Of a DNA stretch of 36,782 nt, positions 9,199-12,036 are shown one piece after another. The position numbers and the translations under genes were made by a program. The notes under the pieces were generated by a model that was given only the letters and a program-made list of their open reading frames with translations, had not been told where the DNA came from and made no database searches. The stretch's first letter is position 1. Each line of letters starts with the position of its first letter. The stretch is from a virus, in the IMG/VR virus record IMGVR_UViG_3300005337_000015, positions 1 through 36,782 of that record, one strand, 5' to 3'.

Positions 9199-9343
9199 CT
9201 GGAATAATAAGCCACTCTTAAAAAAAGTGCCAGGTTCTAAGCTTTGGTGGTGTCTCGATCCAGTAAGTCGCTATATTTGGTCGTGTTGCGCAACATCTAA
9301 ATTAGCATATGAAGCTTACAAGACATTTGGTAAAAACAAATGA
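9182..9343 (+). CDS. Small Trp/Cys-containing protein (53 residues)
   Basis: Not obvious by length, but GGAGGT lies 7 nt upstream of ATG 9182 and its stop overlaps the next start (ATGA). It begins MSTLVNWNNKPLLKKVPGSK and contains LWWCLDPVSRYIWSCCATS, then KLAYEAYKTFGKNK. Three cysteines and four tryptophans in 53 residues are striking. Function unknown. Confidence 0.65.
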   Translation: MSTLVNWNNKPLLKKVPGSKLWWCLDPVSRYIWSCCATSKLAYEAYKTFGKNK

Positions 9344-9642
9344 AAAGTCAAGCTATCCGTGATAGTGCTCGCGACGAAGAATGTACGCTGCACATTGTTG
9401 GTGTATGCAACTACGACCCTGCAACTACCATCCTTGCTCACTTGCCAGATGAGTCTCACGGCATGGCAAGGAAAGCAGACGACATTTCATCGTGCTACGC
9501 TTGCTCATCTTGTCATGATTACTTAGACGGCCGCGTGAAGGTGCACGAAGAATGGCACTATGAGCGGGAATGGTATATGCGTAGGGCGCTAGTAAGGACT
9601 TTGCGGCGGCTGATAGAAAAAGAGATACTAAGCTTCAAATAG
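9340..9642 (+). CDS. YbcO/DUF1364-like nuclease
   Basis: Encodes 100 residues beginning MKSQAIRDSARDEECTLHIV. Family-defining features are IRDSARDEECTLHIVGVCNY, an AHLPDESHGMARKADD loop and ACSSCHDYLDGR, a zinc-binding HNH-like centre with paired Cys and His. Lambdoid prophage YbcO proteins of this family are small DNA nucleases encoded next to NinB-type genes, which matches the position here. It is the last gene before the structured noncoding region. Confidence 0.85.
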   Translation: MKSQAIRDSARDEECTLHIVGVCNYDPATTILAHLPDESHGMARKADDISSCYACSSCHDYLDGRVKVHEEWHYEREWYMRRALVRTLRRLIEKEILSFK

Positions 9643-9645
9643 TGC

Positions 9646-9673
9646 TTGATTTATGCCAAAAAAAGTGTATGAT
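9646..9673 (+). promoter_or_regulatory. Sigma70-type promoter of the large noncoding RNA
   Basis: TTGATT (9646-9651) and TATGAT (9668-9673) with a 16-bp spacer, starting 4 bp after the YbcO-like stop codon. The TGCTTGATT 9-mer seen at leftward promoters is present here in rightward orientation (9643-9651). The predicted start near 9679-9681 coincides with the first base pairs of the 5' pseudoknot. This is the best-looking promoter in the window. Confidence 0.7.
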
Positions 9674-9677
9674 TCAC

Positions 9678-9710
9678 TTACACCAAGCCGATAGTGGTGT
9701 AAAACATCGG
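9678..9710 (+). ncRNA. 5' H-type pseudoknot of the large RNA
   Basis: Stem 1 is 8 bp and stem 2 is 5 bp, with 2-nt loops on either side of CCGAT and a 3-nt AAC connector before ATCGG. It would form from the first transcribed bases and could protect the 5' end from RNase E/RppH-type decay or act as a nucleation module. Confidence 0.65.
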
Positions 9711-10020
9711 CAGATCATGACAAAGACCATAACCGCCCTTCGGGGTCCTCAGATTTGTGTGTGATCCGACTGACTCCCGTAAGGAGTCGCCTCAACAGAG
9801 CGTCAGCATAGGGCTATACCGGACGGCAACCCGGTATCTGGAAACAGGGCGCTCTGTTGAGGGTGAGTGCGCAGTGCTGATGCGCAGTGAACTAAATGTT
9901 GTCAAAAGACACGCCTAAAAATCAGTTCGGGCGTAAGCCGGAGATCAGCGCCGGCCGCCCTAAGCTAGCAACAACACACCACACAGCCTAGATCGCTGTG
10001 ACTACACGGCAGAGCTGGCC

Positions 10021-10136
10021 CGACAGGGCGACGCGCACCAATGGGGTTACTGAAAGTGCCAGTTCGATTCTGGCTCGCTTGTCGAGGCTTGGGAGGACGG
10101 GGGCGGTTCGATTCCGTGAAAGGTCGCTGGGCGACA
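10021..10136 (+). ncRNA. tRNA-like double module inside the large RNA
   Basis: GCCAG-TTCGATT-CTGGC (10057-10073) is a textbook T-arm with a seven-base TTCGATT loop. It is enclosed by an acceptor-like helix, CGACA plus GCGA (10021-10031) pairing with TCGC plus TGTCG (10075-10084). Only about 26 nt separate the 5' strand from the T arm, too few for D and anticodon arms together, so this is not a decodable tRNA. A second CGG-TTCGATT-CCG arm follows (about 10104-10117), and a second CGACA (10132-10136) could compete for TGTCG. No CCA is encoded. Confidence 0.55.
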
Positions 10137-10301
10137 AATGACATGACAGTCGGGAAAGACTGGCACCCTCAAAAATAACGGTTAGTAAAGCGCGGAAATC
10201 GTTCTAGACACCGAGTTGGCATGCTTAGTTAGATGCTTAAGCCATAGTTAGCCGTTATCTTTGAAGGTCTACGCATCACTTACTTTGCTTAAGGGATAAG
10301 T

Positions 10302-10508
10302 ATGGGCACTAAAGTATTTTTACTAAGGCAAGAAGCAGAAGCGCTATATGATGCAGTGAAGCAATTGAAAGAACCTGACTATTTTGCATTATTTGGAGCA
10401 AACATCTTAGCAGAGTCGTTCAAGTTTGGCGTTCGACTAGATGATTATGGCAAAGAATATAGAATTGGAGACGCTGCTCCTAATAGCGAAAAGCCGCTTA
10501 AAGCTTAG
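10302..10508 (+). CDS. Unknown protein (68 residues)
   Basis: ATG 10302 follows AAGGGATAAGT. The product begins MGTKVFLLRQEAEALYDAVK and has an amphipathic helical first half, then NILAESFKFGVRLDDYGKEY. It is the first gene after the structured RNA and may be translated from the same transcript. No family recognised. Confidence 0.6.
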   Translation: MGTKVFLLRQEAEALYDAVKQLKEPDYFALFGANILAESFKFGVRLDDYGKEYRIGDAAPNSEKPLKA

Positions 10509-10529
10509 TGTGGTACGTATCTTTCCCGA

Positions 10530-10558
10530 TATCTATCACGCGAACCTAAATCAAGCAA
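10530..10558 (-). promoter_or_regulatory. Candidate antisense promoter facing the large RNA
   Basis: On the minus strand TTGCTT (10553-10558) and TAGATA (10530-10535) have a 17-bp spacer, and TGCTTGATT is present at 10549-10557. It would transcribe leftward across 10508-9650, antisense to the structured RNA. No leftward gene lies downstream before the HNH-free 9642 boundary, so any product would be an antisense RNA. Evidence is motif similarity only. Confidence 0.35.
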
Positions 10559-10579
10559 ACACGCTACTGTTAGTGGTGA

Positions 10580-10648
10580 GGTTGCCGAGCCCGTATGTAG
10601 ACGGACGTTGCCGAATAGACTGCATCAAGCCTGGGCGGGGCTGGCACC
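10580..10648 (+). ncRNA. Second structured intergenic element
   Basis: GGTTGCCGAGCCC (10580-10592) pairs with GGGCTGGCACC (10638-10648) with small bulges, enclosing CCGT/ACGG (10591-10594, 10601-10604). GTTGCCGA is repeated directly inside. It ends about 7 nt before the AGGAGG of the next gene, so it could regulate its translation or be a separate small RNA domain. Confidence 0.45.
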
Positions 10649-10666
10649 AATTCAGCAGGAGGCATT

Positions 10667-10804
10667 ATGTCACTAGATGACTTCAAGAAATGCAGCACAA
10701 GAGCACGTAAGCAGCTAGAGGCAAGTAAGCTAACTGAGGCTCAGTTTACTCATGTGCTATGGGCACTTACGCGTAGATTCTATTTGCAGAAATCAAAATA
10801 CTGA
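10667..10804 (+). CDS. Small basic protein (45 residues)
   Basis: Strong AGGAGG 5 nt upstream of ATG 10667. The product begins MSLDDFKKCSTRARKQLEAS and ends WALTRRFYLQKSKY. It is basic and helical, which would suit nucleic-acid binding. It overlaps the next ORF by 53 bp in another frame. Confidence 0.6.
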   Translation: MSLDDFKKCSTRARKQLEASKLTEAQFTHVLWALTRRFYLQKSKY

Positions 10805-11406: not shown

Positions 11407-11541
11407 ATGCGTAATGTATCAAATCACATTGATTTTGTCAAGGCTCAGATAGCGCACTATCAGAAGATGGTGGCGAAGAACCGTCACAATCCCTTAAACC
11501 AAAAGGGAATGACAATTCGGGCACAAAACTTCCAAATTTGA
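11407..11541 (+). CDS. Small helical protein, 3' end overlapping the HNH gene
   Basis: AAGGA lies 7 nt upstream of ATG 11407. The product, 44 residues, begins MRNVSNHIDFVKAQIAHYQK and ends IRAQNFQI. The last 16 codons overlap, antisense, the C-terminal end of the HNH endonuclease (NLEVLCPNCHSL). Because that antisense stretch encodes a conserved HNH motif, the tail of this small protein is probably borrowed from the inserted element and the original gene truncated near NPLNQK. Confidence 0.5.
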   Translation: MRNVSNHIDFVKAQIAHYQKMVAKNRHNPLNQKGMTIRAQNFQI

Positions 11542-12036
11542 AGGATGATTATTGTGTCTATTTCGATCTTTATGATGTATGCCAAGAATGGATGGATGGC
11601 TATTGAAGCCGCAGCGAGAACATTCTTTGATAAGATCACGGGCGACCATAGCTTTACGAACAGTAGTGAAATTTGGATTCCATGTATCTTTAGAGGATTT
11701 GTTAACACATGCTTTGCTGCAATAGATTCGATTATGTGCTTTATGAGCCATGAATTCTGTACCACAATGCTTACAAGAGACGGTCTCATTGCCGCGAAGC
11801 GCCATAGACTTGTAATAACATTTACGAGAGCAATATTTAGCTTTGTTTGCCCTAGAAGAAATATGAGTGAAATGTGTCCCGCAAATTGCACAATCAGCTT
11901 CAACTATTGTTCTAACAGCCATAGCTTGACAAGATCGTGAGCAGTATCTGAATGTGTCGACTCTATATTTAGGGACATACACTTGGTTAGAACAATATAG
12001 GCAGTTCTTGGCTTGACCGTCTTTCCTCTTACTCAT
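11494..12036 (-). CDS. HNH homing endonuclease with three zinc fingers
   Basis: Encodes 180 residues and is the only reverse gene in this part of the rightward operon. Three tandem treble-clef-type modules are visible: CLYC...YCSRSC (about 12-37), CAIC...YCSRKC (about 50-73) and CKHC...YCSKAC (about 87-108). An HNH nuclease follows: CSRCGFNSHPSILGIHHKD, RNRHNNH, NLEVLCPNCHSL. Such free-standing HNH proteins spread by cutting related phages and being copied in by repair. It stops only three residues after the final conserved histidine, shorter than usual, consistent with a junction near 11494-11505. Orientation and neighbouring truncated gene support recent insertion. Confidence 0.85.
   Translation of the reverse strand: MSKRKDGQAKNCLYCSNQVYVPKYRVDTFRYCSRSCQAMAVRTIVEADCAICGTHFTHISSRANKAKYCSRKCYYKSMALRGNETVSCKHCGTEFMAHKAHNRIYCSKACVNKSSKDTWNPNFTTVRKAMVARDLIKECSRCGFNSHPSILGIHHKDRNRHNNHPSNLEVLCPNCHSLLV

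Follow-up and report, generated by a model that had tools for sequence, protein, structure and literature searches.

What is encoded between positions 9643 and 10301 of this viral DNA? The window, that is, the whole stretch of 36,782 nucleotides analysed here, comes from a phage with genes for NinB, a Sak-type annealing protein and terminase, and the region in question begins directly after the TAG stop (9640–9642) of a gene for a YbcO-type nuclease. An earlier note on this DNA, made from the sequence alone, had seen no credible gene there and had proposed a large structured noncoding RNA instead. The six-frame check agrees: zero ORFs of 60 or more amino acids overlap the region on either strand, the longest open stretch has 71 codons and each frame holds 9–14 stops. 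A coding origin was ruled out by the absence of such ORFs and by these stops. The G+C content is 54–58% within the region, compared to mostly 37–45% in its flanks, and the fold of the whole has a minimum free energy (MFE) of −233 kcal/mol (z −3.06), equalled by none of 20 shuffled sequences. The z values of its parts, folded alone, are −5.2 for 9768–9870, −3.0 for 9856–9966 and −1.8 for 10144–10275. The segment 10050–10165, referred to below as the core, is thermodynamically unremarkable by itself (z −0.6) and its MFE structure differs from the T-arm fold given here, which is assigned in the window from covariation, not from energy. We think it rather probable that the region encodes a modular noncoding phage RNA of large size, about 0.6 kb, which belongs to a class absent from Rfam and likely acts in trans. 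Judging from conservation and covariation in independent phages, both the RNA structure and the membership in a family are well supported.

The elements of the RNA are collected in Table 1. Its 5′ end lies probably near 9680, and the exact positions of both ends are approximate. The helices listed in the earlier note are all present: the perfect 13-bp helix (helix E), the two hairpins resembling tRNA T-arms, both of which covary in relatives, and the 10-bp closing helix near the end (10175–10184/10249–10258), which is part of a longer pair. The pseudoknot described there as 8+5 bp does have its 8-bp helix, but the second helix is of 6 bp. Comparison by eye found similar pseudoknots at the 5′ end of relatives, as well as the same CGUAA loop as in the hairpin at 9772–9788, on an altered stem, in the loci L107 and L115. 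The features of the C/D module are recognized in the window by MFE and comparison (P1 with a GGUG-type strand, hairpins C and D, and complementary loops), even if the scan pattern missed the window's variant GGUGAGUGC. The loop of hairpin D (AUCAGC, 9944–9949) forms a kissing helix with GCUGAU of hairpin C (9876–9881). The features of the core are likewise all found: T-arm 1, the NNNGN loop pseudoknot, the D-loop-like GG, T-arm 2 and the loop GGAAAGAC of hairpin A. The 5′ strand of P1 shares 3 nt with helix E (9860–9862), which amounts to an alternative pairing. As a side observation, this strand can pair either with the upstream E strand or with the downstream CACC strand in the window and also in L039, L121, L238 and L244, a possible switch or domain swap.

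Table 1. Features of the noncoding region and of its borders (window coordinates).
Feature	Position	Strand	Basis
Upstream gene, YbcO-type nuclease (lambda nin-region-like)	9340..9642	+	Pfam YbcO E=1.3e-24; PHROG 131 HNH E=2.3e-28
Candidate sigma-70 promoter TTGATT-16-TATGAT	9646..9673	+	9/12 match; relatives stronger
5′ H-type pseudoknot, 9678-9685/9695-9702 (8 bp) and 9688-9693/9706-9711 (6 bp)	9678..9711	+	Sequence
Hairpin GACUCC-CGUAA-GGAGUC, at the place of hairpin A in relatives	9772..9788	+	Fold
Helix E, 13 bp perfect, 9790-9802/9850-9862, three small hairpins inside	9790..9862	+	Fold, z −5.2
tRNA-cloverleaf-like module C/D; closing helix P1 9860-9865/9956-9961 (AGGGUG/CGCCCU)	9860..9961	+	MFE; P1 covariation in relatives
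Hairpin C, D-arm position, UGCGCA-GUGCUGA-UGCGCA	9868..9886	+	Fold, covariation
Hairpin D, T-arm position, GCCGG-AGAUCAGCG-CCGGC, P1 3′ strand immediately after	9937..9955	+	Covariation
T-arm 1, GCCAG-UUCGAUU-CUGGC	10058..10074	+	Strand-swap test
Small hairpin UCG-CUUGU-CGA; 10080-10083 pseudoknotted to 10140-10143	10075..10085	+	Covariation
D-loop-like segment GGCUUGGGAGGA (consensus GGCUUGGUAGGA)	10086..10097	+	Conserved GG
T-arm 2, GCGG-UUCGAUU-CCGU	10103..10117	+	Strand-swap test
Hairpin GUCGC-UGG-GCGAC	10123..10135	+	(U/A)GG loop kept, both stem sides vary in relatives (alignment A3; by eye)
Core pseudoknot 3′ strand GACA	10140..10143	+	Covariation
Hairpin A, GUCG-GGAAAGAC-UGGC	10149..10164	+	Loop GGAAAGAC kept, stems varied
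3′ long helix 10165-10184/10249-10268, 85% complementary over 20 nt	10165..10268	+	Fold; sequence not conserved
Small downstream ORF, 68 aa, 3′ boundary of the noncoding stretch	10302..10508	+	ORF list

A DNA search of the window sequence in phage records gave zero matches, and no full-length homologue of the RNA was found; homology was established module by module. Gathering phage homologues and examining their covariation, as the earlier note had suggested, revealed compensating changes in the T-arms, the core pseudoknot and the C/D helices. The T-arm/D-loop-like core (10058–10164) recurs in about 30 loci of phage contigs, one plasmid, bacterial genomes and cultured phages, namely the Pseudomonas putida phages Holyagarpour and Ebordelon and jumbo Klebsiella phages. 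The plasmid, from Aromatoleum, has it in an unannotated gap with 86% identity over 125 nt (blastn), and patterns built on these 125 nt led to viral contigs and four bacterial-genome contigs. The order is T-arm 1, a 3-bp hairpin with a pseudoknotted loop, the D-loop-like segment, T-arm 2, a hairpin with UGG or AGG loop, the pseudoknot partner and hairpin A with its GGAAAGAC loop. The homologues were collected by exact patterns and their invariant positions are thus partly imposed. Initial scanning for the T-arm 1 string by itself gave 103 stretches, only a few of them homologous. Two control scans were performed, each omitting one half of the core motif. The scan without the T-loop returned mostly chance matches in protein-coding sequence, and the genuine members in it all have the T-arm; the GG of the D-loop-like part also recurs in members that were retrieved with this part left free (GGCUCGGUAGGA, GGCCCGGUGAGA, GGCUGGGUAGGA). 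In strand-swap tests, T-arm 1 has 68 of 75 Watson–Crick pairs against 43.8 after swapping (15 distinct strand pairs) and T-arm 2 has 52 of 60 against 35.2 (12 distinct strand pairs), with 0 of 5000 swaps as good in both cases. The same holds for the 3–4-bp core pseudoknot (31 of 42 against 19.1, 0/5000), although the rough pattern used to locate its partner strand puts this strand in the wrong place in a few sequences. Pair 28–93 of this pseudoknot in alignment A3 is paired in 14 of 14 sequences (UA 6, GC 5, CG 2, AU 1), and the covariation score is 0.289 versus 0.096.

The search for the C/D module began from the likeness of 9860–9961 to elements in relatives. The hairpin C pattern is present in at least 120 stretches of viral contigs and the module also in dozens of named phages, laid out as P1, 2 nt, hairpin C, a variable part, hairpin D and, at once, the P1 3′ strand. 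When the own flanks were compared with those of other loci, a matching P1 strand was found in 54 of 90 elements versus 7.8 (maximum 15) with the left flanks swapped. For 31 sequences of fixed length, 99.5% of the cells are paired versus 26–48% with the partners slid, and the covariation score is 0.318 versus 0.090 after shuffling; these 31 were picked among the P1-matching elements, so that the pairing of P1 is partly selected, and that of C, D and the kissing pairs is not. The kissing pairs are kept in 99.4% of the cells of alignment A4, with an outer pair that varies between GC, AU and UA. The layout corresponds to a tRNA cloverleaf, with an acceptor-like helix (P1), a 2-nt joint, a D-arm (C), a variable part on the anticodon side and a T-arm (D) abutting the acceptor; here the contact between the D and T loops of tRNA is replaced by a Watson–Crick kissing helix of 5–6 bp. 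A further likeness to tRNA is the T-loop UUCGANU closed by G–C, whereas no anticodon arm or CCA is recognized. Neither ARAGORN nor the Rfam model RF00005 finds a tRNA cloverleaf in the window, and no alanine-type acceptor stem with CCA was seen in its sequence. The RNA has no CCA end or complete acceptor arm and is therefore not a usual tRNA substrate. Besides, L131, L142, L163, L222 and L237 show tRNA-like domains near GGTGAATGC or GATGGTG that are closed by a long helix and lack a CCA; by eye, they seem to stand in for helix E.

The core-type and C/D-type RNAs form one modular family, as indicated by the same-strand linkage of hairpin A: 14 copies stand no more than 900 nt from a C element that shares their strand (171 kb), compared to one in 755 kb elsewhere in the contigs and none in antisense. 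The carriers of C/D elements include IME11 (Gamaleyavirus), Bas77-80, ZC2, SopranoGao, STGO-35-1 and Gungnir39, among others. In L127, C/D is closely followed on its downstream side by a conserved stretch that also occurs in KP8, 9NA, DS8, pSb-1, e270.2 and an E. coli prophage; this stretch (CCAGACGATATCTGAGTG..AAAACAGAT, L127:2652-2716 and L244:3137-3190), common to many phages, is probably a further module of the family. The RNAs usually reside in unannotated gaps of 0.7–2.1 kb. The gap of IME11 measures 2.1 kb, those of the two P. putida phages, between the genes for dCTP deaminase and a TerB-like protein, have about 0.7 kb each, and in KpLz-2_45 a tRNA island ends with one of 1.1 kb. These gaps often adjoin tRNA genes, whereas ARAGORN finds no tRNA in the window. 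The sister phages Holyagarpour and Ebordelon give a different kind of evidence. In the long helix upstream of the core, a perfect helix of 23 bp in one corresponds to a helix of 21 bp in the other (L359:1854-1988, L361:1867-1988), with both arms changed and complementarity kept; the identity is 48% in this helix-loop region and 92–97% in the flanks. The exchange of both arms between conserved flanks implies that the helix is selected as RNA.

Is this RNA an independent transcript or the leader of a longer one? The earlier note had assigned it a near-consensus promoter after the stop codon. TTGATT-16-TATGAT is indeed there, but its match of 9/12 is by itself not above chance, as 1.1 such sites are expected per 1150 bp. 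Promoters stand at a comparable place in the closest relatives, with matches of 12/12 in L048 and 10/12 in L117 and L123, and with 239–368 nt from promoter end to core versus 388 in the window. An own promoter of the window RNA is thus plausible but weak on its motif, and the candidates in relatives are stronger. The main rival reading is that of a cis-acting leader at the start of phage operons, acting on polymerase, as in the put-type antitermination of phage HK022, or on the downstream message. We regard it as unlikely, even if the neighbourhood is what one would expect for operon starts: of 49 proteins encoded next upstream, 11 are CI-type repressors (PHROG 4), more than in any other group, the downstream neighbours include terminase, endolysin and recombination genes, and several prophage copies are near CI-type repressor or terminase/endolysin genes. 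Moreover, no intrinsic terminator was found downstream of the window RNA, or between it and the ORF at 10302, which has no match in PHROG or Pfam. However, some lytic phages of Klebsiella, Salmonella, Shigella and E. coli have the RNA on the other strand than the neighbouring genes, tail genes among them, and the unit is closed by terminator-like hairpins in several relatives (with T-runs right after P1 in L134 and L240; by eye, after a tRNA in STGO-35-1 and at the gap end in IME11). The put RNA acts on its own elongation complex and is of about 70 nt with two stem-loops (PMC9378689). It is also a phage stem-loop RNA, located near early promoters as some C/D modules are near cI genes, but the family RNA is much larger. 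Free RNAs acting in trans are what we favour, since the relatives occupy their own gaps, and some of them have a promoter and a terminator to themselves and run against the direction of their neighbours.

The class assignment was approached with the models of Rfam release 15, none of which matches the window at gathering score; GOLLD, ROOL, tmRNA and introns are all missing. A permissive search of 9550–10420 (E≤5) did not retrieve these four either and gave small, partial, sub-threshold matches to PhotoRC-I (E 0.03) and rydB (E 0.5), and nothing else. T-large RNA was also considered as the identity and dropped, as it is a group II intron variant. GOLLD and ROOL are large, ornate RNAs of phages and prophages, often beside tRNA genes and with unknown function (PMC12286853). 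The family RNA is of the same genre, i.e., large, phage-borne and often near tRNAs, and yet the earlier note could not match its sequence to either, and their Rfam models fail on the window and on the tested relatives. It differs from both also in its tRNA-type T-arms and kissing cloverleaf, and in its marked modularity and varying length. That it is a divergent GOLLD or ROOL would be most improbable, and a new class is favoured. Another matter is whether the RNA might have a structural role like theirs, assembling into a homo-oligomeric cage or scaffold via kissing loops and exchangeable strands. The size, phage origin and tRNA-island neighbourhood are shared with GOLLD and ROOL (PMC12286853), and the two partners of the P1 5′ strand (E and CACC), together with a P1 shared among repeated modules of one RNA, would allow domain swapping. 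On the other hand, the kissing pair is explicable within a single molecule and there is no covariance-model similarity to GOLLD or ROOL; we consider such an assembly improbable, only just behind the leader reading.

The T-arms and the D-loop-like segment resemble the tRNA-like domain of tmRNA, and some relatives go further. A tmRNA-like tag frame after a PK1-like pseudoknot, searched for with the resume motif, is present in seven other phage loci (L244:2808, L246:2782, L247:2768, L245:2653, L352:1677, L353:1687 and L221:6917) and not in the window. The tags read ANDDVVLMAA*, ANEEMYLAVA* or ANEEVYLAVA*, with a synonymous change in the last two alanine codons of the KP8 tag, and a C/D module follows 200–355 nt downstream in 5 of the 7 loci. 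The alanyl tRNA-like domain is not recognised in them. IME11 has sub-threshold matches to the permuted tmRNA model RF04321 (E=5e-5) and to beta_tmRNA (E=2.5e-4). The tag-bearing loci possibly encode a phage mimic of tmRNA. That the window RNA itself would be a divergent, perhaps permuted, tmRNA is very doubtful: ARAGORN and the tmRNA covariance models, RF04321 included, find nothing in the window (E≤5), no recognisable tag or alanyl-type tRNA-like domain with CCA was found in it, and the matches of the relatives are under the gathering scores.

The most likely function, in our opinion, would be that of a tRNA-mimicking scaffold or decoy in trans. A transcript starting near 9680 would fold into separate modules, i.e., the 5′ pseudoknot, helix E, the cloverleaf-like module, locked by the kissing of its loops, and the second core, which combines two T-arms of tRNA type with the D-loop-like segment and a pseudoknot, and would act as a separate RNA. 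Its surfaces resembling the tRNA elbow might engage or titrate tRNA-handling factors, such as maturation and modification enzymes or tRNA-targeting defence nucleases, and this could help the phage to keep tRNAs usable. We put this forward as the likeliest mechanism, although quite tentatively. The broader idea is also speculative, if a little less so: phage RNAs of a widespread class would be modular mimics of tRNA, with kissing cloverleafs, permuted T-arm/D-loop elbows and sometimes tmRNA-like tag pieces, and would control or protect, as free RNAs, the machinery for tRNA and ribosome rescue in infected cells.

Only a handful of large structured RNAs have been described from phages, and what they do is not known. 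Literature searches, mostly without subscription papers, found no description of this RNA family, and an earlier one may exist. Its presence in at least 120 viral contig stretches and in cultured phages of E. coli, Salmonella, Klebsiella, Erwinia and Pseudomonas putida makes deletion, probing and imaging possible in the laboratory. Should the likeness of its folds to tRNA be mimicry that serves a function, the class would offer a route to the role of such RNAs and also explain some unannotated gaps of 0.7–2 kb and doubtful tRNA calls in phage genomes. As regards these calls, tRNA annotations lie beneath matches in public records (tRNA-Cys in H61, H68 and H70; tRNA-Met in H42) and may be miscalled parts of the RNA.

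A few minor observations concern the surroundings. The Rfam int-alpA RNA (RF02996) is found at L210:916-980 (−), and a C/D module lies on that strand of the contig too. In the window, 10510–10670 is another short noncoding stretch and has a D-like motif, AAGCCUGGGCGGGGCUGGCACCA; its part 10560–10660 was considered as a degenerate second module and dropped, as it folds no better than shuffled sequences. Further on, between the early and the late genes, there is an HNH endonuclease gene (11494–12036, − strand; PHROG 1271, E=1.8e-22), perhaps a homing gene.
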